From contig LUCM01008411.1 of the NCBI GenBank assembly GCA_008360955.1, forward strand, positions 62,001 to 126,000: DNA of 64,000 bases. The letters are read 5' to 3'. Positions within the stretch are counted from its first letter, which is position 1. Each line of letters starts with the position of its first letter. Shown one piece after another: positions 768-63,963 of the stretch. The stretch is from Fasciolopsis buskii (taxonomy: Eukaryota > Platyhelminthes > Trematoda > Plagiorchiida > Fasciolidae). The notes beneath the pieces are model-generated. The model saw nothing but the letters and a program-made list of their open reading frames with translations. It had not been told where the DNA came from and did not search any database. Made by a program: the position numbers and the translations under genes.

Positions 768-1203
768 CCACGCAAATAGAAGCGAATCCGGATTCGAATG
801 TCGATGAAGTCATGCAACGATCATGGAACACAACCCCTTTGGATTGCTCATTCGAGAACACGGATTCTAAGCTTTGTGAATGGAAGGAAGACCCGAGAGA
901 TACGGATGTTGTATGGACTAGGGAATTTTCAGTCCAAGATCATAGTCATGTGGTCTGTTTACATTTCCCGTCCGTAAGTCGTCGATACCACGCGCGAAAT
1001 CGTCTATCTGCCAAAAAACCGGAGTTTTCTGTCGGACGCTTATGGAGTAGTTCCATCACAACGGAAACGGATGCGATCTCGTCATCGCAGACTGTCCAGC
1101 CCGGTACACCGCAGTGTCTTCGGTTAAATTATCGTGTACAAAATGGGCACAATATAGCTACAAATGATGGTCTGAAGTTAGCACTTCTTAAACATTCTTC
1201 AGG
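768..1203 (+). CDS. Exon N1: N-terminal half of MAM-like domain, alternative 1
   Basis: Open from the acceptor (pyrimidine tract then ttttcag, 761-767) to the donor GG|gtgagg; 436 nt, entering with 2 nt and leaving with 2 nt. It encodes a MAM-like first half: DCSFENTDSKLCEW (Cys1 and Cys2 with following Trp), DPRDTDVVW, HVVCL (Cys3), an R-L-W-S segment and CLRLNYRV (Cys4 on a beta strand), ending LALLKHSSG. MAM domains are extracellular adhesion or dimerisation modules. The first 14 codons lie upstream of the first Met, so this is an internal exon. Splicing to N2 shifts the frame and meets a stop, while splicing to any A exon restores Gly and stays open. Domain call is from motif spacing by eye. 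Confidence 0.85.
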
Positions 1204-1469
1204 GTGAGGAAGTATCAACGGTTGATATAAACGTCATAAGGTTTATGAGCTTTCTTCTTTTCTAATCCTAATGCTTTCTCTTCACCCAAAATTCTACTTT
1301 CCCATAAAAAATTGCAAAACAAGTGAAAAGACAACAAGTTGATCTTTCTTAATCATGCAGCATAAGTCCTTCTTACTGTGGGGTAACAGTGAAAGTCATT
1401 CGATACAATTCTGGCAATTGTTTGGATTTATTTTCTACTGCTAATTGTGCTCTTTCCGTGATCCTTCAG

Positions 1470-1923
1470 CGTCGATCAAAACAGAACGGAAGTTGGTTGA
1501 TTCGTCGGATAGGTCAGCCGCTTCGTCATTACTGGATTGCAGCTTCAGTGGGTCCACGTGCCGTTGGGGGAATGATCATAACAACTGGCCTTTTAACTGG
1601 AATGTACGTTCGGGAAGCATCACCAAACGTCCAACAACTTTTCTGGCCACAACCGAACCGACTGAATTGCATGGAGCCGTTTGCCTTGACGTGCAAAGTC
1701 ACTCAGACCCAGCTCCACCAGGTTCCGACATCACGGCGCGACTGTTCGGTCCGTTAATCAATTTCTCTCAATCTCCTGCTTGTCTACGCATACACTATCA
1801 GATTGTGAACGGCACTGTATTAAATTCCAGCACTGAGTCCTTCCGTAGCACTTCGGAGAATCCACACAAAACAGCTGGAAGCCTCACAGCTCCGAGATTA
1901 GCTGTTTTACGCCGTCAGATGGG
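1470..1923 (+). CDS. Exon N2: N-terminal half of MAM-like domain, alternative 2
   Basis: 454 nt between gtgatccttcag and GG|gtgagc, with the same entry and exit phases as N1, only 266 bp downstream of it. Encodes LDCSFSGSTCRW, a W-rich NNWPFNW stretch, GAVCLDV, TARLFGP in place of the usual RLWS, PACLRIHYQI and the end LAVLRRQMG. It carries a Ser/Thr-rich insert after the Cys4 strand, longer than in N1, N3 and N4. The intron before it is too short to hide the missing second half of a domain after N1, which argues that N1 and N2 are alternatives, not successive domains. Confidence 0.84.
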
Positions 1924-3841
1924 GTGAGCCTAATAGGCCTGGAGATTATTGTTGTCCTACGGGGCACGCTTGCCTTAGTTCAAATGCTACGCGCTGCGGG
2001 TGTCGCTCTCCTTTCTGTCGAATGCTGAATAACCCTAGCTCTAACAATATGATCTTGGTGCTGCTATGTTTGCCTTTTCCTGTTCATGTTGATACCCTTC
2101 ATCACTATTCGTTACTCTCCACCTCTCGTATAACTCACGTAAGCTCCTGTCATCAGCTCTCTTTATCTAATATTGGTGGCGTTTCACGGAATATCGTCAG
2201 TTGTACACTTGGTCTGGGATTCTCATCTGGTGTCTTGTTCTTAGTCATGATTCCCGCTAAAATCTAACCCGTACTAATCCACGCGTTGCACTACGATAAA
2301 CGTCAGCTTCCTATGCACAGGTCGCTCGTCATGTACCGTTCGATGGCATCTCAGTTTACGCATTTTCCCAGTCGAGTCTGCTCCCTTATTTTCTTCGCTG
2401 GTGAGCTAAACTCCTCCTGGATCCCTGGTTCCTTGATCCTCCGACTGCGGAAGAATTGTGCATGCAATTCCGTTAAGTAGTTTCCAAACCCGTAGGTTTC
2501 TTGTGCATTTAGCAATTTATTTGCATGTTCGATTCCGATTTAAAGTAATTCTTTGATTTCAACCGTGCATAACTGAAGTCAGAAGCACAGAAGCGCAGAA
2601 CGTATCATCGTTCTCGTCCTCAGACTCGATTGCAGGGAACGAGGGGTGTCTTGAGACAATTTGGAATCACCTCGAAAAATTGATCTGTCTTTTTTTATCC
2701 GAGTTAGAACTCGTGGCAGCACGCAAATTACATCCAACCCTTCGATAGAAATATGCCTCTGCTTCATCAAATTCTTCATAGATTCGATCGATTCCGTTGC
2801 CAAATACGGAAGCTGCAACTTGTGAATAAACGGGAGGCACTGTTTCCATTCGCGCGATCGATTTTTGTTGAAAGCCAGTTCAAAGCCAAAATTCCGATGA
2901 GGGTTTCGAAACTAAACGAAATTGTCCTTTTGATTGCTAGAGTTTGCTCGTCTATCACACAGTAAGCCCTTTCTTCTACGGTTCGCATACTCCGTAATAT
3001 ACATTTTTGACAAAACTGTTTAATTCATCGGATTTCCCGAATGGAATGCGCCAGCCAGAAGTGATGGGCAAACATTGATGCCAAATGCATTTCATCCTTA
3101 TGTACCCGATAGCTACTGCTACCACCATCCACATCTCTGCTTTTCGACAATCAAGTCAGGTTCGCATAAGACGAGAGTGACATACTGTGATGTATCTCTT
3201 CTTGCTTGAACGGAACAAGGCATCGTCCCAAAGTTGAGAAAGACATTTTGAGGTTTTTGGTAAACGCGATGCAGTGGAAGAATACCAGGAATCGCATTAC
3301 AGATTCGGCATAGCATTTTGGCGTTTGTAATTCTCGAGGCGAAATATAACCGGCTCATTCAATAGTCACGGGTTACCATATCCACACGAACTCGAAAAAA
3401 AACGATGAAAGTTTGTTGTCAGTCGATACCAAAAGATGGTATTGTCCAACGTTTGGTATTTAGATAGACAGTAGCTTGTTCTTAGTATTTCTTTTATCTA
3501 AAGAATCCTCTTCTCGGCTGTTCTGTGATATTTCGGGCACCGTTCCTGTGGTTCGTTCCGTTTTCTCACCTATTTTCGCAATGAACTTCAGTGACTCCTC
3601 ACTTATCTCTTACGAATGATGGGACTGGGAATAGTTTGTTTTGTTTCATCTTCGTATGTTATCGCTTTAGTCCCTAATAGCACAGGAATGTTTGAATTCG
3701 GCGCCATCTAGGCTGTCCCAGTTTGTCGCTTACTCTCCATCTGGTCGATTTTTTGCTTCATGTCCGACTAGGCTTTCATTTCGACCACTTGTCACACTCG
3801 ACTAGACATGAACCGCGTAAATCTTCGTCACTTTTTTACAG
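1924..3841. other. Intron between N2 and N3
   Basis: 1.9 kb without a recognisable exon. Short overlapping open frames at 2579-2988 occur on both strands and share no motif with the gene; I treat them as chance. Confidence 0.5.
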
Positions 3842-4264
3842 TCTTGCTCGCGGATCGTGCCACAGCTCGTCGCTCACGTCTCCAGTCACGTGTCGCGGAC
3901 CCGGTGAATTGTACTTTTGAGGAACAGGCGTTTTGCGGTTGGAATGATGATCCACGAGATGTTCTTGTCTGGTGGGAAATAGAACCACCGTCCGCCGTAC
4001 TGCAAACACATGTGGCCTGTTTGTTAGCCAGCCCAGAGTTGGGGAATCCCCGTGCCTCAGGTAGTTCACATGTACTATCTGATATTTGATCTTTCCTTAA
4101 ACTTACTTTTAAGGCTTGAAGGTCACCAGAGGCTCCGCTCGCCTTTGGAGCGGACAAATTCACTCCATCGGACCAAAAGCACCCCGATGTCTAAAACTGG
4201 CCTATCAACTTTCGGCACCTAACGCTATTCCGATCACCCTCAGTCTGCTGCGACATTCGGCCGG
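3842..4264 (+). CDS. Exon pair N3a/N3b: N-terminal half of MAM-like domain, alternative 3
   Basis: Two exons, 3842-4060 and 4114-4264, separated by a 53-bp intron (TCAG|gtagtt to acttttaag). Reading through without splicing hits a TGA at 4087. Joined, they encode VNCTFEEQAFCGW, DDPRDVLVWW, HVACLL, SARLWSG, PRCLKLAYQL and LSLLRHSAG, the same order of landmarks as N1. The pair enters with 2 nt and leaves with GG|gtgaga, as the single-exon versions do. The extra intron lies just before the R-L-W motif and is a copy-specific gain, or the others have lost it. Confidence 0.84.
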
Positions 4265-4424
4265 GTGAGACTTAGAAAAATTAGTCCATTAGGTTAAAGG
4301 ATTAGCGCAACTATTCTCGTATTTTCTTGTTATCAATTAGGCTACCGGCATCATTTCTGCAATTGATAGAGTTTAACGATTCCCACCTTCCTTTCTCTGT
4401 TTGTCCTGTTTGCCTCTTTAAAAG

Positions 4425-4848
4425 GCCTTAATCCTCAAAATCTGTTAAAACGTGAAAGTTCACCAATGGATTGCACATTTGACAAGGGGGATATGTGTGG
4501 TTGGATGCCAGATCCGAGAGAAGGCGGCGCTCAGTGGATCGTCCTCCCTAGACCGCAGGGTTCAGTGACAATGGGGTTTGATCCCGGCTTTCTGTGCCTC
4601 TCACCTTTTTCTCACACTGGCGACTTGAGCTCTTTCGACGATGAATGGGCCGATGATCTGGCGGTCGATGAGGGTAATGCACAAAAGTCCTCCAAAAAGC
4701 TAAATGCTCGTCTTTGGAGTCCCACTGTTCGACAACGGTCCACGGGGACAGTTTATCGTTGTCTTGGCTTCGCTTATCGTATCGAAGGGGTTGATGATAC
4801 GCGCTCCATTGAAAAATTCCAATTGGCTTTGTTGCGTCATTCGTCTGG
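4425..4848 (+). CDS. Exon N4: N-terminal half of MAM-like domain, alternative 4
   Basis: 424 nt from ctctttaaaag to GG|gtaaga. Encodes MDCTFDKGDMCGWMPDP, GFLCLSPF, an acidic loop, ARLWSP, YRCLGFAYRI and LALLRHSSG. It lies only 160 bp after N3b; a direct N3-N4 splice would read GGG CCT TAA, an immediate stop. Last N-type exon recognised in the window; its exit phase matches the entry of every A exon downstream. Confidence 0.85.
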
Positions 4849-6748: not shown

Positions 6749-7046
6749 CGCCTGTTCGCAGCAGGACAAGCAGGTCGATTTAGGCGTTATTTTCCAGTCT
6801 TTCAATTGGTAAGCTCCCTAGACCATGTTTGGTTTCGAAAGTCAATCTCACAGAGATGTCCCTAACATCTTCGATTTACCAGCCTAATGCTTTTCAATTC
6901 CTTGGTCGGACAGCAGAAATGAATTGCTTTGGAAGTCCGCCATGATGGAGCAACATGAACAATACAATGACTACGGAACGTCTGCCAGTTGGCAAATGAT
7001 ACATGTCCCACTTGTTGAGGCGCATTCTGGATCTAGGGATTACAAG
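6749..7046 (+). CDS. Cassette 1: second half of MAM-like domain (A + B exons)
   Basis: A exon 6749-6808 (gcccccacag to TG|gtaagc), 60 nt, with 17 residues between its two cysteines, the longest A seen. B exon 6914-7046 (cggacag to AAG|gttcgc), 133 nt: RNELLWKS, then ASWQMIHVPL and RDYK. This B is the longest in the array. A-B intron is 105 bp. First intact cassette after the N exons, 1.9 kb from N4. Confidence 0.85.
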
Positions 7047-8599
7047 GTTCGCAGACTTTCACGTACTCATTGTGAATCTATAGGTGTTGTATTTTAATGA
7101 GCCCTTCCATTTCCGATTGCTTTGGGAGTGTATTTTTGGAATGAAGTCTTTCAGTGCAGTTCATTCACCTCTACCGCCATCTTGTGGAACCGTGCTTCGT
7201 TTCATTCGGTTGTCCTCTCCCTTTTTCCTTTACTCACAAATCGGCAATAAACGGATAGCTCCTGTGTACTTCAGTCTATTGGTATCGGACGTGAAGCGGT
7301 AATTTGGTAAGCGAACTATGTAACCACGCAACTAGGTTGCCGATTGCTGCTTCACCCATCCCATATGCACTCCTCACAAGATCTGTCAGATCTTTTATGT
7401 CCAGGAATTTTGGTGACTTCAGTGGCTCTATGGGGTGTACTCGTACTACAAACCACCGGCAATGGTGTCATTTTCGCATACTTTTTCTCGCCGCAGTAGT
7501 TGCACATGTTCCCTAGAGCTTGAGAAGCACTATTAGCGAGACTGAATCCGTTCTCTCTCCCTCGCATCTCCCCTCTAACGCTTTTTGTCGTTGGTGTGAC
7601 TGACTTAGTGTATGTTTAGTCAAAATAACCCTTTTTGGAATTGGGCTTCAATGTACATATATATATATATATATAGTTTCAAAGGTTAACCACATCATTG
7701 AGTCGCTTTTTTACTCATTCTTGCGATCGACATTACCTTTTTATTAATAATCCAATAGTGCTCCTGATAATTGCTAAATTCTGCGTTAGCAAAGCTGCAG
7801 CTTTCTTCTTTAATAAAAGATGGCCCGATTTAGGTTGTACTGAGTTTCGGTTCCGCATCAACGTGAACGTTGACCTCAAGGCCGTTTGGGTGCGTTTATT
7901 TAAACTGTGATATTTTTTATGGAGAGCATGATGAAACACTAGCAAAAGCGATCTTTCATGGTACTTCAGTGTAGACGACAGACTGGTATCTTCGCATTAG
8001 ACTGCGTCCAATCCTTTGAAATAAATAAAATGATCATTTTAACGCTTCACAAGAACATTTCAACGCGAGCCTATTTTTGAGCCACAAAATTCACAAAATT
8101 TAAACACGGTGATGGTTTTTCTTCCTGATATCATTCAAATGTCTCCGAAATTCCCTCCAATTCAACAATTTTGTGCTGCAATTCGTGGTTCTTGTGTTGT
8201 CTCTATCCTACTTTGTTCCTGAAGCTGACGTAGGGATCTGAAGGCTTAGTCGGGAGGATAGCAGCACGAGACCATTTTCTCGCAAATCCTTAGGAGCCGA
8301 TGATTACCAAATCAGTTGACCCATCTTTTGATTGTTTTCAGTAGAGTTGATCGAGTCATTCAGCTCTTACTCCTCTAGTGCACTATAGTGTCGCATATGG
8401 AGATAAGTGTAAGGGTAATGGATATTGAATTGCCATATCCATAACGGAAATCAGTGGTCAATACAACTGTGGCGACATTGCATTGATCACGTCAATCATT
8501 AAGGTGAGCAATAATTAGCATGAAAAGATCTATTAATCCTGAAGAGCCAACTGTGACCAATTAATGTTCTTTGCGGAAAGTCGATATGGACGACTTGTT
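7047..8599. other. Intron after cassette 1
   Basis: Apart from the AT run at 7657 nothing was recognised. An open stretch 7140-7302 ending GTGAAGCG|gtaatt has no N-x-x-L-W or D-Y-K motif. Confidence 0.45.
7657..7675. repeat. (AT)n microsatellite
   Basis: Uninterrupted AT dinucleotides in the long intron after cassette 1. Confidence 0.9.
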
Positions 8600-11033: not shown

Positions 11034-13030
11034 CTATAGGAAATGACAGCACGAACACCACTGTTCACGGTTCACTGCCATATGCTTCATTGTCTCCAGG
11101 CCGCTAATTGACGGATCTTTCGGACCTGGACCACGAAGACGAGAGGCATCTACTTGAGCTACGTTCGTTGTGCATTTTCCCATTCCACGTTTCCACGACA
11201 TTTGCCAACCTCCATATGATTTCTTCCACTCTGTGGGGGGAAAACAAAATAGGTCGTGTTACGGTAGACGAGTGTTCGCCATACGCAACACGTGACCGAA
11301 CGAACGTAGTCTACTAAGCTTCGTAAACTGAAATAAAGTGTTCTCAGAATTGGCAACTAATACCAGATTCCTAACCTCTGCATTGCTTACCCGATCACTA
11401 TCCAATCCTGCGATATTGCATAGAAAACGGCGATCGAAAACCTCCATTCGACAAACATCGACATACACACTCCATGAGACGCAGTACACACGACCTTTCA
11501 ACTACAGTGAAATGTCTGGCTGATGCCACAAGTGCCTTAGTGCAGCGTACGCCGCTAGAGCCTTGGATATACGCGTGCATACCTCCACTGCCGTGCTACC
11601 TTCGCTCGACACGCAGCTACCAAGGTGAATAGAACGGTTCACATTCATTATTTTTTTCCATCCAGAATCAAGTTCGGGATTACTGTCGTCCAGTCCTATA
11701 ACAGCACTTCACATTTTGAACCGAGCAACCGACCTCGACAGTCTGTCTAGTTGACATCTGGTCAACGGATTCGAACAAGTATGCGATGTCATCTGCGTGA
11801 TCTAGATCACACGGCTTCTCACCATTTCCCTGTTCGATTCCTACATCCCGGAGACCTAAAACATCTTCCATCACCTCGCCCGTGACGAAATTGAACAGGA
11901 ATGGGGAGATGGGACACCTTCGCTGAACGCCGCTAGTCGTTTCGAATGAACTTGACAGTTCACCATATACCCTCATACAACCACAGGTATGCAAGTACAA
12001 TGCTCGCAACAGGTTCAAGAACTTTTCTGAAATACCCTTCCGGTGGAGAGCACCAAATAGTGCTATCCAATTCACTGAATCGAACGCGCATTTTAAGTTC
12101 AGAAAGAGAACGATCTTAGGGCGGTGTGTATGGCGCGTTCCGAGTAACTGGCGAAGAATGAATATCTGATCGATGCATGCTCGACATGGTCGAAATCTGG
12201 CCTGCTTTTCGCGGATATTATTCTCGCGAATCGGTGTCAAACGGCGCAACAATATTGAAGCCGAAACTATCGGACGTACACTAATTCAGCGATGATTGCT
12301 GCAGTCATTCCGTGTGCCCTTCTTGAACATGAGTACAATCAATGACTCCTTCCACGATAACGAAATACCCTCTTCGTTCCAGGTGGTACGAAGCAAGGAA
12401 GTAAGTGTTTTTATCAGAGCTTTCCTCCATTTGTAAAGAGCTGGGGAGATTTCGTCGGGACCGGCATCTTTTCCCCTCCTCAGTTCAGATAGGGGGTTAA
12501 GAAACGCGTTTCAAGGATTCACAGCTGCGGACTTCGGTTAACGACACTAGCGTGCAGCCATCTAAACTGATCCTTGAAGTTCTCAGCCCAACGGTTCAGC
12601 TTTTGTTGTCTACTATGGATGAACTTTCCATTGCCATTGCATATGAATTCAGTGATCGAAGTTTGCCGGTCACCGGTGTCGCGTATAGGTCTAAGCACTC
12701 TTTGGCTACTACCCGAAGCAGCTGGTGACAAAGTAGATGACAATCATTTCTAAGCTCGCCGCTGTACCCAGTCGTGTTTTTGGGTCGGAAATTTAACTAC
12801 TGAACGACACGATCGCTTGGAGGAAAATGTATGAAATCTGCGGCGATATCGTTTCGGCTGCTGTTAAAATGTTTACGACCTAGATTCGGAGCTGATTGAT
12901 CACAGAGCTCCTTATTTTAAACGAATCTGTTCGCAAATCCTCTGAATTATGGCGATGGACGAAAACAATGAGCGATAAAGGAACATTGTTAAGTTTGCCA
13001 CTTATTATGGCTCTTCCATTCTCTAATTCT
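11034..13030 (-). mobile_element. RTE-clade LINE, 3' half with reverse transcriptase, decayed
   Basis: Minus-strand translation gives, in order, a linker (RWAENFKDQF near 12570), reverse transcriptase pieces (CAFDSVNWIALFGAL, SPFLFNFVTGEVMEDVLG, DHADDIAYLF with Y-A-D-D as H-A-D-D, 11680-12252), a distal segment (VSNAEVRNLVL, FGHVLRMANTRLP, about 11259-11400) and the C-terminal tail (QWCSCCHFL then stop at 11034). This order is that of RTE elements. Several frameshifts and stops make it inactive. The 5' endonuclease was not recognised; the right boundary is approximate. Confidence 0.85.
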
Positions 13031-15717: not shown

Positions 15718-15829
15718 CACAAACGAACCAGTTTGGAGTACTGAACTGGAGGTCTCGAATCAGTGGAACTATGTGTTCATTCCGTTGACGTTTTCTTCCA
15801 ACGGTTCGCGGTCAACAGATGACTTCAAG
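15718..15829 (+). CDS. Cassette 2: B exon only
   Basis: 112 nt from ccaccggccag to AAG|gttcgc. Encodes TNEPVWSTE, NQWNYVFIPL and TDDFK, with the usual 1-nt entry and codon-boundary exit. I found no A exon in the preceding 1.3 kb. By phase an N exon could splice straight into it (GG+C gives Gly), so it could be used without A or with an upstream A. It may also be a leftover half cassette. Confidence 0.7.
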
Positions 15830-16440: not shown

Positions 16441-16606
16441 TGATTGCAACAAGAAAATTAATCCGACCAGTGGACGTTATGTTATCTCTTGTGACGGCGC
16501 ACAACTATGGACTTCGCCATTCGAACCGAGCGCAATCAGGACTGTGCCGTGGCGTACAGTTACCATCGATTTGCCCGTCTCAGATGAGCAGGGCACAGCG
16601 TTTAAG
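16441..16606 (+). CDS. Cassette 3: fused A+B exon
   Basis: One 166-nt exon from tcgtgcctag to AAG|gtgatt. It reads DCNKKINPTSGRYVISC directly followed by DGAQLWTSP, then PWRTVTIDLP and GTAFK. The two cysteines and the L-W motif sit as in split cassettes, so A and B are parts of one module. The A/B intron is absent here. Entry 1 nt, exit on a codon boundary. The next cassette starts only 221 bp later. Confidence 0.88.
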
Positions 16607-16827: not shown

Positions 16828-16993
16828 CGCCTGTGTGAAACAGGCAGATGCTGGACAGGGTCTTTCCGCAGTGCTTTGTCACAATCGCGAGTTGTGGTCG
16901 TCACCGAACTCGGGATTGACTGCGAGTGCTCAGTGGAAAACTGCCCTTGTTCAATTGGAGTTCGGAGCTTCGGAAGCTGAGCTAGCTTACAAG
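16828..16993 (+). CDS. Cassette 4: fused A+B exon
   Basis: 166 nt from ccccgcacag to AAG|gtgtga, the same length as cassette 3. Encodes ACVKQADAGQGLSAVLC, HNRELWSSP, AQWKTALVQLEF and LAYK. D-Y-K has become A-Y-K, but the AAG|GT junction is kept. Splicing cassette 3 into it runs out of frame and ends at a TGA (16978-16980) inside this exon. Confidence 0.87.
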
Positions 16994-20210: not shown

Positions 20211-20255
20211 GGCCTGTGGAAAGATCACATATCGTGGTGATCCGGCTGTTGTATG
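20211..20255 (+). CDS. A exon without an adjacent B (possible first half of cassette 5)
   Basis: 45 nt from cgctttcatag to TG|gtacgt, entry 1 nt, exit 2 nt. Encodes ACGKITYRGDPAVVC, close to the A exons of cassettes 9 and 10 (HITGDDAVLC), with 12 instead of 14 residues between cysteines. No B lies within the usual distance: the next acceptor (gttccag, 20301) opens into a stop. The next good B is at 21581, 1.3 kb away. Confidence 0.65.
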
Positions 20256-21580: not shown

Positions 21581-21686
21581 TGCAAACAAACAGTTATGGA
21601 GTTCCGACAATTATTCCACTTCGAATGTTTTTTGGACGACAGCCGTGATCGATTTGACTGCCCTGTTGGATGCTCAAGATTTTAAG
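21581..21686 (+). CDS. Cassette 5: B exon
   Basis: 106 nt from attcttttacag to AAG|gttcga. Encodes ANKQLWSSD, FWTTAVIDL and AQDFK, with standard phases. No adjacent A exon is visible; the nearest upstream is 20211-20255. Intact splice sites and an open frame suggest it is usable. Confidence 0.75.
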
Positions 21687-23413: not shown

Positions 23414-23626
23414 ATCATGTCAACAAATTCGACGTGAACAGACAGGAGATTTGGGCATGTTTTGGTAGGTCTGTCCCCTTTGCTCCATGCAACTTCCGTC
23501 GCACCGCATAGTTCCAACGCTCCTATATGGAAATCCTCTGATGTTACCAATACCGTTCCTAATGACAATTGGATATCGGCTTTTGTGGATTTATCCACAG
23601 ATCGCTCTGACCAAAGAGACTTCAAG
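23414..23626 (+). CDS. Cassette 6: A + B exons
   Basis: A 23414-23464 (cgcgcacag to TG|gtaggt), 51 nt: SCQQIRREQTGDLGMFC. B 23512-23626 (accgcatag to AAG|gtgatt), 115 nt: SNAPIWKSS, NDNWISAFVDL, QRDFK. The A-B intron is 47 bp. Confidence 0.87.
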
Positions 23627-25324: not shown

Positions 25325-25543
25325 GGATTGTCAGAGAACTCGCGAACAGGAGACTGGTAGCGTTGGGACGTATTGGTATGCAATTCGCCTAATTCCCGAC
25401 TACATCAGCTAATTTTTGTTTCACACAATAGCTCCAGTCAACCGATTTGGGAAAGTGATTTTCAGCCACAAAACAGCAAATGGCAAGAGGTCTTGGTATC
25501 CCTTAATAACTCATCACAACGCACATCTCTCGCCGATTACAAG
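25325..25543 (+). CDS. Cassette 7: A + B exons
   Basis: A 25325-25375 (acggccag to TG|gtatgc), 51 nt: DCQRTREQETGSVGTYC, resembling cassette 6. B 25432-25543 (cacacaatag to AAG|gtgcga), 112 nt: SSQPIWESD, SKWQEVLVSL, LADYK. Intron 56 bp. An A-B intron near the usual minimum suggests the pair is spliced as one unit. Confidence 0.88.
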
Positions 25544-27977: not shown

Positions 27978-28574
27978 TTCGTGCGAATTGGGTACCCACC
28001 ATCGTACCGGAGGATTGGCCACTATTTGGTATGCAATGTCACACTGTCCTTCGTTATTCGCCTTTTCAGTTCGACTGCAGTTTGAACAATTCTAACCTGC
28101 ATCGCTGATTTCAACAACTGACTAGCCCAAAGTACCTATGTTTCAAATAATCCCATTTGAATAGTGTTTTACACATCCATACATTGTAATGCTTCAGCTG
28201 AAATAGGCACGGTTTCCATAAGTTTTCTAAGGAAAATTTTCTGGCTTACCAAGTCAGCAACAAACTATCCGAAACATAATGCCGATTAAAATGATCGTCT
28301 ACTTAGGTCACGCAGTAACCCATCGATGATCCATGTCGGAATCATCAAATACCCGAGAAAGTTATACTCATCATCGTAGAATAACATATCAGTACTTTTT
28401 GTCATCATCTCTTCTAATTCATTCATTGATCATGCTATCCCGTCTTCAATAAATCGCAGTGCGAATGATCCGATTTGGACTTCTCCACTCAAACCAAAGG
28501 CGACTACTGAATGGCATACGACATTTGTCAGTTTGTCCCACGACAAATCGGGCGCAGAGCCTAGAGACTATAAG
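27978..28574 (+). CDS. Cassette 8: A exon with a distant B exon
   Basis: A 27978-28028 (gttcgaag to TG|gtatgc), 51 nt: SCELGTHHRTGGLATIC; its pyrimidine tract is weak. The acceptor at the expected distance (ccttttcag, 28061-28069) leads into a dead B copy. An intact B follows at 28460-28574 (aaatcgcag to AAG|gtaatg), 115 nt: ANDPIWTSP, TEWHTTFVSL, PRDYK. The A would have to skip the dead copy across 431 bp, or the second B is an orphan from a lost neighbour. Confidence 0.72.
28070..28117 (+). pseudogene. Dead B exon inside cassette 8
   Basis: Acceptor ccttttcag is intact and lies 41 bp after the A exon, the normal spacing. The frame reads S-T-A-V, then TGA where the conserved Trp (TGG) of the L-W/I-W motif should be, then about 10 residues containing ADF before another TGA. 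Extent is approximate. Confidence 0.55.
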
Positions 28575-29025: not shown

Positions 29026-29221
29026 GGCATGTGAACGTACAAAGCATCACATTACCGGAGACGATGTTGTAACCTGGTAGGTTTGCCAATTATTTGCGTG
29101 TGTAGTTCATCGTCACCGATCACTTAGTTCAAGCCCAACCATTTGGCGTTCCAATTCGTCAGCAACTTTGGCGTGGCAAGTTGCGTTTGTGGAGCTCTTG
29201 TCCACCGTACCAGATTATAAG
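29026..29221 (+). CDS. Cassette 9: A + B exons
   Basis: A 29026-29076 (gtgtctag to TG|gtaggt), 51 nt: ACERTKHHITGDDVVTC. B 29128-29221 (atcacttag to AAG|gtgcgc), 94 nt: SSPTIWRSN, LAWQVAFVEL, VPDYK. Intron 51 bp. Nearly the same as cassette 10 about 1 kb downstream, so a recent tandem duplicate. Confidence 0.9.
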
Positions 29222-30054: not shown

Positions 30055-30247
30055 TGCATGTGAACGTACCAAACATCATATAACGGGTGACGATGCCGTA
30101 CTATGGTAGGTCTCTTAATCCATTGACCCTCATCGCCAGTCGTATCTCCTTAGTTCGAGTCCCACCATTTGGCGTTCAAATGACCCATTGACGACAACTT
30201 GGCGGAAAGCATTTGTGGAACTCCCTCCCACAAGCCATGATTATAAG
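30055..30247 (+). CDS. Cassette 10: A + B exons
   Basis: A 30055-30105 (ccattcag to TG|gtaggt), 51 nt: ACERTKHHITGDDAVLC, two residues different from cassette 9. B 30154-30247 (tctccttag to AAG|gtgcga), 94 nt: SSPTIWRSN, TTWRKAFVEL, SHDYK. Intron 48 bp. Differences from cassette 9 concentrate between the L-W motif and the end, the likely exposed part. Confidence 0.9.
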
Positions 30248-33635: not shown

Positions 33636-33950
33636 GTCCTGTCGACCTGTCTTGGATCCGCAAACTAAATTGCCATCAGTTCTTTGGTAGGTATCCATAA
33701 TTCCTCACACCTGTTTCTCTCCCACACCATACTTGGTATGTAGGTCATAATCACCAAGTTGATACGAGCACTTGTCTCATCTTTCACTTTTTTTCTGTTT
33801 GGGATTGGTCCTCTTCGACCTAATCCCTAAAACTATTTCAGCTCCAATGAACCGCTTTGGATCAGTGTCCAATCAATTACTTCCGATCCAACAACCTCTT
33901 GGTCTCATGTCCTTGTTGAATTGGGGAATTACACTGCATCCGATTACAAG
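33636..33950 (+). CDS. Cassette 11: A + B exons
   Basis: A 33636-33686 (tgttccag to TG|gtaggt), 51 nt: SCRPVLDPQTKLPSVLC. B 33842-33950 (actatttcag to AAG|gtgtgc), 109 nt: SNEPLWISV, SWSHVLVELGNYT (a possible N-glycosylation sequon NYT), SDYK. The A-B intron is 155 bp, longer than usual. Confidence 0.87.
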
Positions 33951-36771: not shown

Positions 36772-37006
36772 TGCATGTCAACGGGAATCACACGATCCCA
36801 ATGCAAGTCGCGTTGGTATGTTCTGGTAGGTAAAAAATTCTCGCCGGGCTTCCATCGTTTCTTGAACACTATCGTATTTTCCTAGTTCGTCTGATGTTCT
36901 TTGGCGTAGCGCTTTCGTAGACCAGAGACCTTTGCATTCTCTGCCCTATTCTGCTGCTCTAGTCAGTCTGAACGCGGATTCCCCCAACACTGGAGGCGAT
37001 TTTAAG
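36772..37006 (+). CDS. Cassette 12: A + B exons, B lacking the second Trp
   Basis: A 36772-36825 (acttttcag to TG|gtaggt), 54 nt: ACQRESHDPNASRVGMFC, with 15 residues between cysteines. B 36886-37006 (ttcctag to AAG|gttagc), 121 nt: SSDVLWRSA, then PYSAALVSL where other copies have W, and GGDFK. Intron 60 bp. All junctions and the frame are intact, so the missing Trp is variation and not decay. Confidence 0.84.
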
Positions 37007-37516: not shown

Positions 37517-37732
37517 ATCTTGTCGAAGTGACATCGATGTTAAAACCGGACAACCATCAATGATCTGGTAGGTGTTCTCGCTCATTGTATCCACAATTCT
37601 GCTTAACCCAGTACAAATGATCCGTTATGGAAAAGCGATAAAATGCCTGATCCTCATCAGACCGGAGCTGACCGCTGGACTACGATATTTGTTCCTTTGC
37701 CGGGAGACAAGCCCTTGATAAGTGATTTCAAG
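37517..37732 (+). CDS. Cassette 13: A + B exons
   Basis: A 37517-37567 (tgtcctag to TG|gtaggt), 51 nt: SCRSDIDVKTGQPSMIC. B 37612-37732 (taacccag to AAG|gtatcg), 121 nt: TNDPLWKSD, DRWTTIFVPL, LISDFK. Intron 44 bp. Only 511 bp after cassette 12. Confidence 0.88.
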
Positions 37733-38235: not shown

Positions 38236-38438
38236 TTCTTGCAAAGAGGTATCACGGGGCTCTTCAGGAGGTTCTTCCATTCTCTGGTAGGCAGCTTTTG
38301 TGTTGTGTTTATTGACACTCATGCTTCAGCGATAATGACGGTTTGTGGACATCGAGTACGACGAGGGATCTCTCCGACGGTTGGCGTACTGTTTTAGTCG
38401 ACATAGCCACCAAGGCCACGGCATCATCAGATTACAAG
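38236..38438 (+). CDS. Cassette 14: A + B exons
   Basis: A 38236-38286 (ctccctcag to TG|gtaggc), 51 nt: SCKEVSRGSSGGSSILC. B 38330-38438 (tgcttcag to AAG|gtgatt), 109 nt: DNDGLWTSS, DGWRTVLVDI, SSDYK. Intron 43 bp. Founder-like member of a trio with cassettes 15 and 16, all with C-K-x-V-S-R-G in A and 109-nt B exons. Confidence 0.9.
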
Positions 38439-38871: not shown

Positions 38872-39073
38872 CACGTGCAAGCAAGTATCAAGAGGCCCCT
38901 CTGGAGGCACCTCGACTATCTGGTAGGTGTTTTGTGCTCGACGTTCCTAACTTATAAAACACAGTGATAATGATGGCCTGTGGACATCCGACATCACGAA
39001 GGACCAGTCAGTTAGTTGGCACACGGTTCTTATCGACCTGTCCATCGTGAATTCAGCATCGTCAGATTACAAG
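38872..39073 (+). CDS. Cassette 15: A + B exons
   Basis: A 38872-38922 (ctgacag to TG|gtaggt), 51 nt: TCKQVSRGPSGGTSTIC. B 38965-39073 (aaacacag to AAG|gtgatt), 109 nt: DNDGLWTSD, SWHTVLIDL, SSDYK. Intron 42 bp. 433 bp after cassette 14, and clearly its duplicate. Confidence 0.91.
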
Positions 39074-39531: not shown

Positions 39532-39734
39532 TTCATGCAAGCAAGTATCTCGTGGTCCAGCCACCAGAAGGACCTCAGTTTTATGGTATGCTCCCACGTG
39601 ATTATCTAACCACATGCATATCCAGTGACAACGAGGAATTGTGGACATTCGATCCCGCAGGTTCTCTCTCTACTAACTGGCGTACGGTATTCGTAGACTT
39701 GATTTCTGTGGACGGCGTGGCCTCTGATTACAAG
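39532..39734 (+). CDS. Cassette 16: A + B exons
   Basis: A 39532-39585 (gctcttag to TG|gtatgc), 54 nt: SCKQVSRGPATRRTSVLC. B 39626-39734 (atatccag to AAG|gtgatt), 109 nt: DNEELWTFD, NWRTVFVDL, ASDYK. Intron 40 bp, among the shortest here. Third member of the C-K-x-V-S-R-G trio. Confidence 0.91.
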
Positions 39735-40320
39735 GTGATTCTAAAACATTCCTATCCGGTCGATTTTTCTTATCCACCAGAGTTTTTCCTAAAACATCCG
39801 CTCTGAGTCCGGAGGCTTTAATCTAAGGTTTGCACATAAAGGTCATTCGAAGTCGCTATTCAGTCAGTGACTCGTCGTTATCTGCCTTCCGGATACTTCG
39901 TTTTGTCGGTACTCAGAATTGACAAGTTGTTATCCTCTTCTTTTTCATAGGACATTGTTAAATTTAATACAAGTAGATTTCGATGTTATAGAATTGATTG
40001 TGATGTTTGCAGTGAGAATACAAGAAATCTTCAGTGATTGGAAATTTCTGAATAATATTACTATCCGTTGATTTCTTTTAAACCACAAAGGCCATTGGTC
40101 GAAAAGTCATCTGGAGCAGCTGTTGTCGGTAGTCGTCTTCACTTATGTTCCTACGGCTTGCCTTGTCAACACAATAACTTTTCCCTCTATTTGTGCAAGC
40201 AGACTGGCTGTGTACAGCCAGGCCAAATCCAGTTTGAAGTATTATTGGGTTCTATTCCGTTTAGGGAAGTAGTAAGAGCGTATGAGGAATTGAGGCCATA
40301 TAACTCTCAGTGTCATTACA

Positions 40321-40374
40321 TTATATATACATATATATATATATATATACATATATATATGCATATATATATGC

Positions 40375-40428
<54 letters not shown>
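40321..40428. repeat. Long (AT)n tract with AC/GC interruptions
   Basis: About 108 bp of AT dinucleotides with periodic tacat and tgcat interruptions. Open frames across it on both strands are repeat translation (Y-I-Y-I), not genes. Follows cassette 16 by about 590 bp. Confidence 0.92.
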
Positions 40429-41346
40429 GTCATGTTCCATTGAATCATGGTTAGGGAGCGAAAAATGATCATTTTCATGGTCGTTAAGCTTCGCGTTTGG
40501 GTCGCAAACGCTTCATCATTAATCGAGGTGGCATCACCAGTGCGTAGGCACACTTAACTGTAGTCTCTGCTTAGGATTGTAATCCGTAAAATTTTATTCT
40601 CTTTGTTTCGCTTCTTATGTTACTTGAGCCACTTGCTCCTCACTAGGCTGTACATGTGATCCAGTTCTCTATTTTACTGGTCGAGGTGTTTGAAGGATTC
40701 TCGACTCCCAAAAGCTCCCTCGGTTTTTTCTCATTTCGTCTCGATACTTGTTCAGCCGGCTCTGAGTATACGTCTACTATGGTCTCTCATTATGATCCAC
40801 GCTTCTGGACGGTCAATCAGAGGTCTGTGGCTTACATCTCTTCATAAAATGTTTCTTCGTTAAAAGTTCATGTGCCGATCGAAGCTTGTTGGCTTGTTGA
40901 AGAACTTCCAACACTGTAGTCATTTTCCCGTACTTGTTAACTCCTCACCTCGGCGTCATCGGTTACTCATCAGGATCAATGGTTTGTCAATGAACGTGAT
41001 ACTGTTTGAACTCTCAAACAGAATCTTTCGCCCGGTAGGACGATTTGAAAGTTTCATGACCTATTATGATAGATGTCCCCGTTTTGAATGGTGAATTCTG
41101 TTGTGTGAACGAAGCTGCTTTAAGCTTTGCACAGCTTGGTTGGTTTACAAGAAAAACAGGCCATGTTCAATTTTCACGCCAAATGCATCTTTCTGCGACG
41201 AGGTGGTTGAAATGGAACAATTTTTTGTCTTCTCACCAATCGTTCCACTTCTCCTCATAGAAGCTCTACGTCCAATTTTCACAGATGCGTTCACCCTTTG
41301 ACATATTTAGTCGGCCTCGAGTCGTTATAGGTTATCCAAACGACAG

Positions 41347-47638: not shown

Positions 47639-47843
47639 AGCTTGTGTGGCCGCCGAACGTGGTTCCATAGACACGATCGCCGTGATTTGGTAAGCGTAAC
47701 TCTCGCCTCCGCGAAATCTAGATTTATCTGACAGTGAGAATCAACGTATTTGGAGTTCCACAGCCCACAATATGCATCCGAGTGAATCGGGTTGGTATAC
47801 AGCCATTGTGCGTCTAAATTCGAGTCACTCCGCCGACTACAAG
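47639..47843 (+). CDS. Cassette 17: A + B exons
   Basis: A 47639-47689 (ttggtttag to TG|gtaagc), 51 nt: ACVAAERGSIDTIAVIC. B 47735-47843 (tctgacag to AAG|gtgtgt), 109 nt: ENQRIWSST, GWYTAIVRLNSS (sequon NSS), SADYK. Intron 45 bp. First of a C-V-A-x-x-R subfamily with cassettes 18-20 and 22. Confidence 0.9.
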
Positions 47844-48182: not shown

Positions 48183-48394
48183 TGCTTGTATCGCTTCAAA
48201 GCGTGTATCCACGGATCGTATTGCAGTGCTTTGGTAACGTGCATCAATCGTACCTAATCATCCTCGTTCTTAGTGAAAATCAATTAATTTGGAGTTCGCC
48301 TTCTGAGCTCCCGACTGATGTGAAATCCACAACTTCCATTTGGCATCAGGTGTTAGTGCCGCTGAACACTGAAGACACAATGAGTGATTACAAG
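48183..48394 (+). CDS. Cassette 18: A + B exons
   Basis: A 48183-48233 (cctgtcag to TG|gtaacg), 51 nt: ACIASKRVSTDRIAVLC. B 48274-48394 (gttcttag to AAG|gtttgt), 121 nt: ENQLIWSSP, IWHQVLVPL, MSDYK. Intron 40 bp. The A peptide differs from cassette 19 by three residues. Confidence 0.91.
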
Positions 48395-48778: not shown

Positions 48779-48991
48779 ATCTTGCGTCGCTTCGAAACGT
48801 GTTTCCACGGATCGTATCGCCGTGACATGGTAAGGTCCGACAACACTGATTAATTGTCTTCAACTATTAGTGAAAATCAGTTGATTTGGAACTCGCCTTC
48901 CGCATCTCTGGCGGATGTGAAACCTGTGACTGGCGTTTGGCAACAAGCATTAGTCTCTCTGAGTACGGATGATGGGACCAATGATTATAAG
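48779..48991 (+). CDS. Cassette 19: A + B exons
   Basis: A 48779-48829 (tcactcag to TG|gtaagg), 51 nt: SCVASKRVSTDRIAVTC. B 48871-48991 (aactattag to AAG|gttcgt), 121 nt: ENQLIWNSP, VWQQALVSL, TNDYK. Intron 41 bp. 385 bp after cassette 18. If cassette 18 were spliced into it, the A part would be read in the wrong frame and the B exon would begin with TGA. Confidence 0.91.
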
Positions 48992-49732: not shown

Positions 49733-49939
49733 TTCGTGTGTGGCCGTTCAACGCGGTTCGGTAAATGAATTCTCTCTAACCTGGTAGGATAACCATCATC
49801 ATCATCATCACCTATTAACTTATGATTACTTAGCGCAAATACACGTCTTTGGACCACAGACTGGGAACCGATTCTACAGCCAGAAAATGAATGGAGACAT
49901 ATAATGATCCCTCTGAACACTACCCAAGTGGATTACAAG
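49733..49939 (+). CDS. Cassette 20: A + B exons
   Basis: A 49733-49783 (ctcatgcag to TG|gtagga), 51 nt: SCVAVQRGSVNEFSLTC. B 49834-49939 (attacttag to AAG|gtataa), 106 nt: ANTRLWTTD, EWRHIMIPLNTTQ (sequon NTT), VDYK. Intron 50 bp. Confidence 0.9.
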
Positions 49940-50908
49940 GTATAAATCCAACGAAATTTTTTTCATTCTCCTAATCGGGATTCCTTTGCGGATTTCCTGT
50001 TGTTTCTCGATGCCCCGTTTAAATTGTTTTTTTTTTGTAGTTTACGCGCATATCCCGTTTTTAGTCCACCTCCTCATAGATCTACTTCCTACAGCCTCAC
50101 ACCGGAGCGAAATTTAAACTGGTGATAGCAGTAATCCTTTTTCAATCTCTTCCATTCCCAATCCTGGAATGCAAGATGATCCAGACACAGTAATCGAAAA
50201 TCACCTGCTTGATTGCTGATGCCATCCATGATTTTCGCGATATGCAGACAACAGTGTCATTTCCACGAAGTCGGATTAGTCGTCCTATGCGATTCATAAG
50301 TGCGCTTGTTTCGCGTGGAAGATATACGAACATTGTCAATACTTAAGTGTCGTTATCCCGTCAGCACGATTTCAGTTACAAAGAGGTTAACCGAAGGAAT
50401 TCGGGATCCAGAGCTTGATCCTCGGTGCAAGTACTATATTCGATAAAGTCACGTTGGCTGAAATGTTTCGTACGCATACCCATAGATGAACTTCCTCGAT
50501 ATGCAAGATGTCCGGTAGTAATTGGAAGGGCGGTCATGGTGGTTAGTCTTTGGAATGACAAAAGAACGAAAATCCTAACTCGTGGGCTGGGGCCGACTGA
50601 AGGAGTTAAACTCTCGGTCCAGGGTCAAGAAGATCCTGTGACAGCTGATCGACTATTCCCAAACACGGAATAATGTATATATATTTCTCACCAGAATCGA
50701 ATCTGTAGCGTCAGGAGTATGCATGGAATCTCTTCATCGAAGAGTCCACAGAAGAACCGCAACTGTAATTCGTTGATAATTCTTTGTCAGTTGGGCTGAG
50801 CCAACCTTAGGAACGAGGGCAGAATGCCCCAGAATATGCATATGTATATAAAGAAGCAGCAAGTAGTATCTGGATGCGAGAGCAAAATGTGCCCGGAAGC
50901 ACACAACC

Positions 50909-50968
<60 letters not shown>

Positions 50969-51779
50969 GATAGCAGGTTAGAGAATGATGTTCTCTCTCG
51001 TTACTCAGTTTCAACAGGATGGCTCTGATGTGTTCGCTGAGCTGGGCAATTTGATTTGGAGGATAGCGGATCCATATAATTCTAGCATAACTTCTGAATG
51101 AACTGAAAAATTGTGTACTATCTCGTGCTATCTGTTTACTTTTGGTTAAAATGGGGTAGATGAAGAATCAGTTCAGCTTCATCCTATCGATGCCCAGCTC
51201 CATTGCATCCTGCTTTCATTCGGGTGGTTTGTTTTCATTTCGCATTGCTGTTACCGGAACTAAGCCCAATGCTGCCAATTCCAACAACTCAGTTTATTCC
51301 TTTCAGAGCAAAAAGTGTCCGTAAGACCCATCTCCGTTATGTGTTACACACACGCGAGGATCAATAATTAACTGCTAGATACGTACTTGATGCCAGCATG
51401 ATAAAAGATGAACTTGAAGTAACCGCTCACAGCAATCAATGGTAATAATGTCGGAGCAAAAGGTAAGATATCAAGGCTAGCTCGTAAATGTTAGGTGGTG
51501 TATCGCGATTCAATATCTTCTATCTGTCGGTTGTGCTGAGCCTATCGATAACTTCCGCTGTTCTGCATTACTGCCGGTTCTGGTTAGATCGAGTGGAAGT
51601 GACGAAAGCAAATGAAGTTCTTGGGATCAGCGGCACACGAAGAATCCATGATTCAGATTAATGCTAAGGATTTTTCAATCTACGGAACATCGTGACATAT
51701 TTGGCCTTCACTGCATTGTTCTCTTGGTTTCTCTTTTTTTCGTATAAAGTGAAATACTCGATAATGGGCAGATCCCATG
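49940..51779. other. Intron after cassette 20
   Basis: Only the TA tract at 50913 is recognisable. Confidence 0.4.
50913..50967. repeat. (TA)n microsatellite
   Basis: About 55 bp of pure TA dinucleotides between cassettes 20 and 21. Confidence 0.92.
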
Positions 51780-53552: not shown

Positions 53553-53555
<3 letters not shown>

Positions 53556-53679
53556 TTCCCTCTTTATCTACCCATTTGTATTCTTCTTTCCTCTTGGGGC
53601 TTGTGTTCTTGTAAAACGTTCGCAATTTAGGCTGTTTTCTAAGCTTTTTTTTCCTTCCCGTCTACGCGTAAAAATGCAG

Positions 53680-53903
53680 ATCCTGCAAATCCAGTTCACA
53701 AGTCTCCGAAAACGATGAATTTGCCGTAGTTTGGTAGGTATTCCATTTGTTTCTTGACTCTCACGACTTCTGACAATCTAAGCAAAAACAAACGTTTGTG
53801 GACATCGGCGCTATCTAGTTCTTTGACCACTGAGAAGTCATCGCAGAGTGATTGGCAAGTGGGGCTGATTGACCTGGACACATCGACTACATCAGATTAT
53901 AAG
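53680..53903 (+). CDS. Cassette 21: A + B exons
   Basis: A 53680-53733 (aaaatgcag to TG|gtaggt), 54 nt: SCKSSSQVSENDEFAVVC. B 53783-53903 (acaatctaag to AAG|gttcgt), 121 nt: KNKRLWTSA, SDWQVGLIDL, TTSDYK. Intron 49 bp. Stands 3.7 kb from cassette 20, across a CR1-like insertion. Confidence 0.89.
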
Positions 53904-55731: not shown

Positions 55732-55930
55732 CTCGTGTGTATCCATTCAACGAGGTTTCGATGGTATCACATCGACCACATGGTAGGTTTCTATGGCCGC
55801 TGTTTTCGGTCTCAAACTGACCCATTTTAAATTTGACAGTGATAACAAAGACTTGTTTCGAACGTCCGAAATCAGTTCGAATTGGCAAACAAAACTGGTT
55901 GACTTGTCCGAAACTTCATCTGACTACAAG
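55732..55930 (+). CDS. Cassette 22: A + B exons, L-W changed to L-F
   Basis: A 55732-55782 (tgtacctag to TG|gtaggt), 51 nt: SCVSIQRGFDGITSTTC. B 55840-55930 (atttgacag to AAG|gtatgt), 91 nt, the shortest B: DNKDLFRTS, NWQTKLVDL, SSDYK. The first conserved Trp is Phe, but frame and splice sites are intact. Intron 57 bp. Confidence 0.86.
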
Positions 55931-57571: not shown

Positions 57572-58690
57572 CCTTAATCTGAGAAGGACGTTCGACTCAG
57601 TCGATCATGCAGTTCTCTGGCGATGCTTTTCATTGAAAGCTGTGCCAGAGAGATTCATCTCACTTTACTAAATTCCTACATGCGAGTATCCGAAGCTGGT
57701 GTCGTGATTACAGCCATCTTTCACCCGAATTTCCCGCAAGAGGTGATGTTCGTCACGACTGCCTACTTTCACCCTTTCTTTTTAAATTTGCTATCGAGAT
57801 AATCATGGAAATAGTCCTGTACTCTGGTCAGAATGATGGCATTGATATTTGCTCAGACACAGACCCGTGTGACTCTTAATATGCAGACGACGTCGTTCTT
57901 TTGAGTGAGGAACTGAGTAATTTGCAAGTCTTTCTTGACCGACAGAGCGATAATTCAGGTATGTTTAGCATGTCTTTATTCTCCTTCGAGGTGTGAAATC
58001 CTGTCGCAGGATTGGATTTGTTTGAGGCCAAAATTCGTCCTTGTAAGGAGCAACTGAATTAGGTGGATAGATTTGCTTATTTAGGTAGTTGTATCTCACC
58101 TGGTGGTCACATGTCGGGTGGAATGTCTTCACACATACAGAAAGCTTGATTGTCATACACTAATTTGAGGCATCTGTGGCGTTGGCATGATGTCCGTTGT
58201 TGGTCAGAAGTCTATTGTACGCAGCGGTAGTGAGATTGGTATTGCTCTACGGCTCCGAAACATGGCCGTTGAAGGCAAATTTGCGAAGACTTTTGGTGTT
58301 TGAATAGCGTTGTCTTCGTAGTATTGGTAGAATATGGTGGGAGAATTTTTTTGAGTAACGCAGAAGTTATGCATAATGTACTGGGTCCTAGAGTCCATTC
58401 TTTAAAACAGACACTTACTCGGAATAGGTTGAGGTTCTTGGAACTTCTCATGCACTTGCTCATAAGATGACTGTCTCGTTATACGCTGCTGTCCGAGGCA
58501 AGTGATGCTTGGAAGATGGTTCAGGGTGGCCAGTGGATTACGTGATAAGATGTAAAACCCCTAACCACGGGTTTGACTCGTTTAAATGAATTTAGTCTAC
58601 CAGTTCGTGGTCCACGAGATCCTGCAAATCAATAGTTTGAGATGATAGGTGATATGGCTCAGTGCTGTAGTCCGTGGTGTTCTTGCATCG
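57572..58690 (+). mobile_element. RTE-clade LINE, decayed reverse transcriptase and tail
   Basis: Plus strand: LNLRRTFDSVDHAVLWR (the F-D-S-V motif), a later LICRRR segment in the region of Y-A-D-D, TNLRHLWRWHDV, VLLYGSETWPLKANLRRLL, CLRSIGRIWWENF, and near the end LPVRGPRDPANQ and DMAQCC. The order matches RTE elements; stops are frequent. It is a different copy from the one at 11-13 kb and is read in the same direction as the array. Confidence 0.75.
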
Positions 58691-59785: not shown

Positions 59786-59805
59786 ATATATATATATATA
59801 TATAT
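59786..59805. repeat. (AT)n microsatellite
   Basis: Short AT run in the cassette-free stretch before cassette 23. Confidence 0.88.
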
Positions 59806-62879: not shown

Positions 62880-63000
62880 TGTCTATCTGAGTTTTTGAGA
62901 TCCTATGTAGTTCTATGACACTTCGAAATTCGGGATCATGGTTGCTGATCCCCTTACTGCTGTAGACTATGAAGTGCACCTCCCACTGAGCCCATGTTTC
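62880..63000. repeat. Dispersed repeat copy 2
   Basis: Partner of the repeat at 47330-47462. The preceding 62.1-62.8 kb, locally GC-richer than its surroundings, may belong to the same element. Confidence 0.35.
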
Positions 63001-63146
63001 ATATTTTTGATTAAAAAACACGGATTTGTTGAGAATCTTCTGACTACTATTGCACTTTTACATTGAATGCAACTGACTTTGCTAACCTAGCCAGTTGTTA
63101 TTCCTAAAATCGTCTCAACAGACGTTTCTCTTATAAACACATTTGC

Positions 63147-63167
63147 CACACACACACACACACACAC
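63147..63167. repeat. (CA)n microsatellite
   Basis: CA run just upstream of a possible decayed A exon that ends ACAATTTG|gtaggt near 63202. Confidence 0.9.
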
Positions 63168-63730
63168 TTTCCCTTGCCCTAAAAAAAGACTCAGCATCCA
63201 CAATTTGGTAGGTGCGTCCTGTGTTTTGGTTTGACTAATGAAACTGTAAATCAATTACAGTTTTTGATCGCGGCTCAATCTCGTGAACATTCACGACCCG
63301 TTCGGGTTAGTTAGATCAGGAATACATGGAAAGGGAAGAAGAACAGAGTGTGGATTGCATTAAACAGTGGACACTAATTTCGGTCCGTTTGTCCCGTGTA
63401 TACAAGAACAAGCATAAAGATTGATTCTACACAATCATATGGTTGTGGACAACAAACCACCATCCTCATTCCAATGGTTGTGCCTAGTTGAGAAGCAAAT
63501 GCGTAACGCTTAAAATCAATCCATTCTGTGAATGTGATTATTCTTGTGCTGATGACATTTCTAAAGGGGAACGGGATGTATGAAAGATCTGTTTGTTGTT
63601 TGTTGACTTTCTTCGATACATTTTGGCTATTCTTTCCTGAATCTTACTCTCTTCCACGTTTGTCTGCTTCATGCGTATTTGTTGATCTGTGTAACACTTT
63701 AACTTCCTCAGACTGCCGTTTCAATTGTAG

Positions 63731-63963
63731 ATCTTGTAAACAATCGGAAGACCCTAGAACGCACAAAATCGGTCTCTTCTGGTGCGTTTCTAACCGTTCG
63801 GTTCTTCAATGAACTGATTAATAACTAATCTTTGGATTGTTGTTCTTATAGTGAAAACGAACCGCTTTGGCGATCCGTAGACTATGTGCGTTCATTTCAT
63901 GCAATTCCCGTCCCATGGAGTCCTGTGACTGTTGATCTGCCCGCCAGTGGTAATGATTTCAAG
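63731..63963 (+). CDS. Cassette 23: A + B exons at the window end
   Basis: A 63731-63781 (caattgtag to TG|gtgcgt), 51 nt: SCKQSEDPRTHKIGLFC. B 63852-63963 (cttatag to AAG|gtactt), 112 nt: ENEPLWRSV, PWSPVTVDL, GNDFK. Intron 70 bp. Fully intact 37 bp before the window ends, so the array or the constant exon it joins continues beyond. Confidence 0.88.

Follow-up and report, generated by a model that had tools for sequence, protein, structure and literature searches.

How many different surface proteins can a single flatworm gene provide, and by what rule are its exons combined? The question is raised by a 64,000-nucleotide (nt) stretch of the genome of Fasciolopsis buskii, the giant intestinal fluke (Digenea, Fasciolidae; positions 62,001-126,000 of contig LUCM01008411.1, assembly GCA_008360955.1; hereafter the window), in which version after version of the two parts of a MAM-like domain lie in tandem. 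An initial annotation had described four versions of the first part and 23 of the second, and had proposed a Dscam-like choice among them. Here, we analyze this array together with its flanks, all positions being counted from the first nucleotide of the window and negative ones lying upstream of it. One F. buskii gene of about 102 kb encodes a predicted single-pass membrane protein, and we suggest that its transcript is very probably spliced to include one first-part exon (N exon) and one second-part cassette between a shared signal exon and shared 3' exons. We give this reading, which rests on anatomy, reading frames and protein annotations from related worms, a probability of roughly 0.87.

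The gene runs in the order signal-peptide exon, 14 N exons, 24 cassettes that are units of two exons (A and B), an 88-nt constant exon, and finally the membrane-helix and tail exons. Comparison of the open frames with one another yielded 15 related B-type and three related N stretches, every one on the + strand, and profiles made from these stretches located the N and B exons; the A exons were located by a pattern (Cys as the second codon and a terminal TG directly followed by GT). The N exons lie between about -12.9 and +4.85 kb (profile E of 1e-5 or better), and weak profile matches (E 0.4 or worse, on both strands) were left unused. Ten N exons are upstream of the window and four are within it: N11 (768-1203), N12 (1470-1923), N13, which is split into two pieces (3842-4060 and 4114-4264) by a 53-nt intron, and N14 (4425-4848). 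Upstream, N2, N3 and N4 (at -11773, -9511 and -8337) are nearly identical, a young tandem duplication; the open frame of N9 extends upstream (-1113 to -996) and takes in an ATG and sequence resembling a signal peptide, a possible alternative start. A relic resembling an N exon at 33117-33158 (E 6.6) was dropped, its surroundings being not N-like.

Downstream of the N exons the B exons span positions 6914 to 65723. Giving the A exon before the B exon, the array opens with cassette 1 (6749-6808 and 6914-7046) and cassette 2 (7259-7306 and 15718-15829), the latter being a presumptive pairing of this A exon with the nearest free B, 8.4 kb away. Cassettes 3 (16441-16606) and 4 (16828-16993) are each a single fused A-B exon. 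There follow cassettes 5 (20211-20255 and 21581-21686), 6 (23414-23464 and 23512-23626), 7 (25325-25375 and 25432-25543), 8 (27978-28028 and 28460-28574), 9 (29026-29076 and 29128-29221), 10 (30055-30105 and 30154-30247) and 11 (33636-33686 and 33842-33950). A denser group comprises cassettes 12 (36772-36825 and 36886-37006), 13 (37517-37567 and 37612-37732), 14 (38236-38286 and 38330-38438), 15 (38872-38922 and 38965-39073) and 16 (39532-39585 and 39626-39734), and the remainder are cassettes 17 (47639-47689 and 47735-47843), 18 (48183-48233 and 48274-48394), 19 (48779-48829 and 48871-48991), 20 (49733-49783 and 49834-49939), 21 (53680-53733 and 53783-53903), 22 (55732-55782 and 55840-55930) and 23 (63731-63781 and 63852-63963), the last one in the window. 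Cassette 24 (65496-65546 and 65612-65723) lies just downstream. Every array exon in the window is on the + strand.

The complete set thus amounts to 24 cassettes, 23 of them inside the window: 22 have separate A and B exons and two are fused exons. The four N exons and 23 second-half cassettes (21 separate, two fused) that had been reported on this strand are all confirmed; the separate A exons in the window number 21 rather than the 20 first counted, the exon at 7259-7306 included. As had also been claimed, the array does continue past the window, by ten N exons upstream and one cassette downstream; in the 160 kb beyond the window we found no B exon other than that of cassette 24, and the idea of an array running far downstream was rejected. 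Splice dinucleotides are consistent throughout, with GT and AG at 22/22 A exons and at 24/24 B or fused exons. A pattern derived from the B exons themselves (AG exactly 13 nt before [LIVM][WF] codons, and a terminal AAG, AAA or CAG directly followed by GT) was matched 27 times on the + strand across 264 kb (23 matches within the 22 separate B exons, four elsewhere), against four times on the opposite strand, which served as control. None of the 14 N exons or 24 cassettes contains a stop codon. The intron between A and B measures 40-70 nt in 17 of the 22 two-exon cassettes, while the gaps between neighboring cassettes measure 212-7904 nt; because of this difference we infer that the A and B exons of one cassette are joined first. 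Tandem homologous exons of similar length and identical phase with conserved splice sites, as found here, are the features by which clusters of mutually exclusive exons are recognized (PMC3228551, in excerpt).

Two open stretches inside the array, at 11683-12285 (- strand) and 57637-57876 (+ strand), resemble each other and look like what we take to be retroelement reverse transcriptase; the former sits between the A exon at 7259 and the B exon at 15718. Runs of TA-type simple repeat occur in the array introns at 40294-40465 and 50800-50978.

What flanks the array is shared. At the 5' end, 22.7 kb before the window, stands the 46-nt signal exon (-22686 to -22641, + strand), which codes for MRFVLVLLLSILCVH and ends in phase 1; a Fasciola hepatica protein begins similarly (70% identity, E 0.004). 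The ATG of the signal exon is directly preceded by a TTTTTTCAG acceptor, to which a spliced leader or an untranslated exon could be joined. The constant exon (67106-67193, + strand), which is entered in phase 0 and left in phase 1, specifies LILEGTIPAGYPDARICVDNITSYTEPCS and one further base; its 29 residues are identical in the aligned relatives from Schistosoma mansoni, Dicrocoelium, Calicophoron and Paragonimus. The next exon begins at 72618 (+ strand) with the membrane helix. The last tail exon ends near 79523 with LSLAERYGLPVAEI and contains PPPGYDEAIGL and PALPPRR, presumably WW- and SH3-binding motifs; between about 73.2 and 78.2 kb the gene model is only partly resolved into exons.

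Do these separately encoded pieces belong to a single domain? An N exon alone scores 25.2 bits against the Pfam MAM family PF00629, just below its gathering cut-off of 26.4. When N, A, B and the constant exon are joined, nine of ten conceptual isoforms exceed the cut-off (33.7-44.8 bits) and five of these nine span the whole MAM profile without a break; the tenth, which contains N9, reaches 25.5 bits. Two other composites also fall below the cut-off (N6 with cassette 14 has no MAM match and N9 with cassette 13 scores 16.8 bits), for an overall result of 9/12, and among the relatives 8/10 pass. A profile of 26 relatives compared with the PDB gave weak matches to neuropilin MAM chains (E 0.017 and 0.02), and a direct PDB search with one isoform gave no match. 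A whole-genome search with the Pfam MAM model found nothing here or in 14 control genomes and is thus uninformative. An AlphaFold model built from the alignment of the 26 relatives had a mean pLDDT (predicted local distance difference test score) of only 46 and was discarded. Taken together, the variable segments would form one domain, with N supplying its first part, A a loop that contains a cysteine, and B the part marked by LW...DYK, and with the final strand and final cysteine coming from the constant exon; the codon at the A/B junction consists of TG and the first base of B, and specifies cysteine in the isoforms written out. The Pfam scans of isoforms and relatives revealed no immunoglobulin (Ig) or fibronectin III domain, and hence the gene is not a Dscam. 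Phosphatase, CUB and protease domains were likewise absent from isoforms and relatives by Pfam.

What rule do the reading frames impose on such an array? An N exon takes the frame from phase 1 to phase 2, an A exon leaves it unchanged, and a B exon takes it from phase 2 to phase 0. As the initial annotation had stated for its smaller set, lengths are uniform within each class (N 1 mod 3 in 14/14, A 0 mod 3 in 22/22, B or fused 1 mod 3 in 24/24), a uniformity that for N and B is partly by construction, their ends having been sought in the homologous frame. Every combination of a single N with a single cassette (336/336, or 14 x 24, which replaces the 92 combinations first proposed) can be read without a stop to the end of the constant exon. 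Two successive cassettes always meet a stop before the end of that exon (3864/3864, from 276 ordered pairs x 14 N), and two N exons in a row always meet one inside the second N (2184/2184). Omission of the N fails in 24/24 cases and omission of the cassette in 14/14. A shifted frame this long would in most cases contain a stop anyway, and the stops met here are thus a consequence of the phases and not independent evidence. In the splicing so modelled, one N together with one B would be the only productive outcome, in agreement with the earlier claim about the frame; the frame does not exclude an extra A.

The annotated proteins of related worms tell us how such exons have been joined in gene models elsewhere. 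Three protein searches returned 51 different proteins, and all 50 that carry a source name come from species that we take to be flukes, tapeworms or monogeneans; such searches reach only proteins that share short exact words with the query, and free-living flatworms could be missed. These relatives are annotated protein models rather than transcript reads, and the N exons in each were counted by eye. In the 20 proteins of the 51 that hold both an N part and the constant exon, one N, one A and one B were read in every case. A scripted pattern count over 38 proteins found the constant exon in 34, with one B in 30 of them and several in four (P0036, P0042, P0043 and P0044). The most extensive series comes from Schistosoma mattheei, where 15 cluster representatives map to one chromosome and have one common tail. 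Thirteen of them show the N part, with seven different N ends in 13 different N-cassette pairs, and the 15 together contain 12 different cassettes. Eight S. mattheei proteins begin with MKIVCSILFLFALSVK and continue into six different N, and one N (ending in IPKLSLLRRQMG) is joined to six cassettes. Three Dicrocoelium proteins have a common signal peptide, MWLPLGILLSLFYVN, ahead of three different N. S. spindalis is represented by a cluster of 24 member sequences, and S. mansoni also has the gene (P0015).

Individual exons of the array can in part be recognized across these species. For 12 models with a single N, the best F. buskii counterpart is clearly apart from the next in several cases and barely so in others. 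Clear counterparts are N13 (best score 223 or 228 versus 134 or 128 for the next), N9 (215 versus 130), N10 (251 versus 95, and 232 versus 100) and N12 (204 versus 109, and 183 versus 111); separation is poor between N1 and N5, among N2, N3 and N4, and between N9 and N10. The joint A+B score gives clear partners for cassettes that include 1, 2, 7, 8, 11, 20 and 22. Scored independently, the A and the B of a relative's cassette choose the same F. buskii cassette in 7/19 cases, whereas the agreement averaged 0.8 and never exceeded 4 in 2000 permutations; as judged from these scores, the pairing of A with B is kept across the relatives. Within F. buskii, two cassettes are on average 33% identical and two N exons 36%. 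For the 14 cassette pairs above 45% identity, the ratio of nonsynonymous to synonymous substitution rates (dN/dS) is 0.13-0.39 in eight and not computable in six; N pairs gave 0.37, 0.38 and, for the youngest pair, 1.68.

We picture the process as follows. One promoter would produce one pre-mRNA, in which the signal exon, leaving in phase 1, would be joined to a single N exon, and this N, leaving in phase 2, to a single A and through it to the B of the same cassette. The B exon would leave in phase 0 into the one constant exon, which would be followed by the membrane helix and tail. Products with two N or two B exons would be truncated by the frame and lost through their early stops. The output could be as many as 336 receptors with different outer faces and a common membrane and cytoplasmic part.

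Several observations weigh against this scheme. The frame leaves the A exons unrestricted: foreign combinations of an A with the B of another cassette are open in 462/462 cases, products that skip the A in 308/308 and products with two A exons in 150/231. The A and B of the relatives' cassettes choose different F. buskii cassettes in 12 of the 19 cases. The youngest pair, N3-N4, differs by one synonymous and six nonsynonymous changes. An RNA docking site, sought by ungapped complementarity in F. buskii DNA alone between two candidate introns and the stretches before A exons or after B exons, was not above background: the top z was up to 5.0 with 12 shuffles, and 3.45 and 3.46 with 30 shuffles, against 1.95-5.1 for 14 background regions. 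Eight of the 51 protein models chain at least two N (P0001, P0002, P0032, P0040, P0046, P0049, P0050 and P0051), and seven hold more than one B or B-like segment, either with the constant exon (P0023, P0036, P0042, P0043 and P0044; in P0023 the second B, seen by eye, is truncated) or without it (P0046 and P0049, with two B-like parts each).

The chained models could mean that the exons are strung together so that one protein carries several successive MAM halves, an explanation that we regard as very improbable. With regular splice sites all such chains run into stops, N and B exons are clustered rather than alternating, and none of the eight chained-N models reaches the constant exon. The chained model of F. 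buskii itself, FBUS_01814 (P0001; -6231 to -2254), which one conceptual isoform matches at 100% identity across 61% of the query, joins N6 to N7 by leaving N6 13 nt early, at C directly followed by GTCGAC rather than at GG followed by GTAATG. An early exit at a non-consensus donor of this kind is what a predictor needs in order to keep the frame, and FBUS_01814 looks like an annotation error. In the chained Paragonimus models the N exons come in the order N12, N11-like, N13, N14, only partly colinear with F. buskii. No easier to credit is the suggestion that most cassettes are dead duplicates and that one or a few isoforms are made: the intergenic-like spacing with its reverse transcriptase-like insertions would suit it, but the uninterrupted frames, the complete set of splice dinucleotides, the dN/dS values below 0.4 and the 12 cassettes used in the annotated S. 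mattheei proteins do not. A choice made by trans-splicing, or by an alternative promoter at each N, instead of in cis from one pre-mRNA has a small though not negligible chance of being correct. Spliced-leader trans-splicing occurs in flatworms, the ATG of the signal exon stands right behind an acceptor, and trans-splicing has elsewhere been suspected for grouped exons chosen as units (PMC3228551, in excerpt). A promoter for each N, however, is at odds with the shared signal peptides that precede different N in the eight S. mattheei and three Dicrocoelium proteins, and both variants are at odds with the location of the variable parts, in one orientation, between shared 5' and 3' exons.

If the transcript is indeed spliced to one N and one cassette, for what purpose would the worm maintain this diversity? 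Long-lived parasites with a protein predicted at the cell surface could use it for antigenic variation or defense at the host interface, and the six nonsynonymous changes against one synonymous between N3 and N4 would favor it. We nonetheless consider this use unlikely, as particular N exons and cassettes can be matched to counterparts in other families of fluke, the computable cassette pairs all have dN/dS below 0.4, and helminths, according to a review (PMC4413821, in excerpt), have shown no classical antigenic variation. Since fluke families have single cassettes in common, we think that the likeliest job of the protein would be recognition between cells inside the worm and not alteration of the coat that faces the host. 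By analogy one may go further and imagine an independently evolved combinatorial identity code of parasitic flatworms, in which one MAM gene supplies hundreds of self-recognizing faces, one per cell, and plays a Dscam1-like role in the nerve cells of flukes and tapeworms; we offer this only as a tentative possibility, one that may well prove wrong. The gene is kept across flukes and the same constant part occurs in tapeworms and monogeneans. Since S. mansoni carries the gene and is a laboratory species for which long-read and single-cell methods exist, the question is directly testable. A gene spliced to one N and one cassette would also account for the several wrong models into which automated annotation has split this locus.

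Searches of open-license full-text papers yielded no description of such a MAM exon array. There are several systems with which the fluke gene can be compared. Like receptor tyrosine phosphatase mu, the neuropilins and the meprins, it would place a MAM domain outside a single membrane helix; unlike them, it has no phosphatase, CUB or protease domain by Pfam, and we do not know of their MAM exons occurring as arrays. In the micro-exon genes and polymorphic mucins of schistosomes, small symmetric exons are skipped or repeats vary. They too provide exon-based variation of a parasite protein, but the fluke gene would use alternative half-domain exons that are exclusive by frame. The sDscam genes of chelicerates and the clustered protocadherins have a promoter for each variable unit, and multi-exon units are known in sDscam; as in these genes, tandem variable units would be attached to a common membrane-and-tail portion, whereas relatives of the fluke gene have one shared signal-peptide exon before different N.

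The closest parallel is Dscam1 of insects and crustaceans, with its variable clusters of exons 4, 6 and 9. Both genes have, flanked by shared 5' and 3' exons, tandem clusters of homologous exons that each encode a portion of an extracellular domain, and in both one exon per cluster (in the fluke gene, by our reading) would be combined into a single-pass membrane protein. They differ in domain (MAM, not Ig) and in phylum, and in the fluke gene two adjacent variable sets fall within one domain, the second set consisting of two-exon cassettes; its combinations number 336 as against tens of thousands, and the search described above found no docking-selector RNA. To our knowledge, hypervariable surface proteins produced by exclusive exon choice are known only from arthropod Dscam, and those produced by promoter choice from the protocadherins. 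If our reading is correct, the fluke gene would be a third solution, in another phylum and with another domain, and would show that combinatorial surface codes arise repeatedly.

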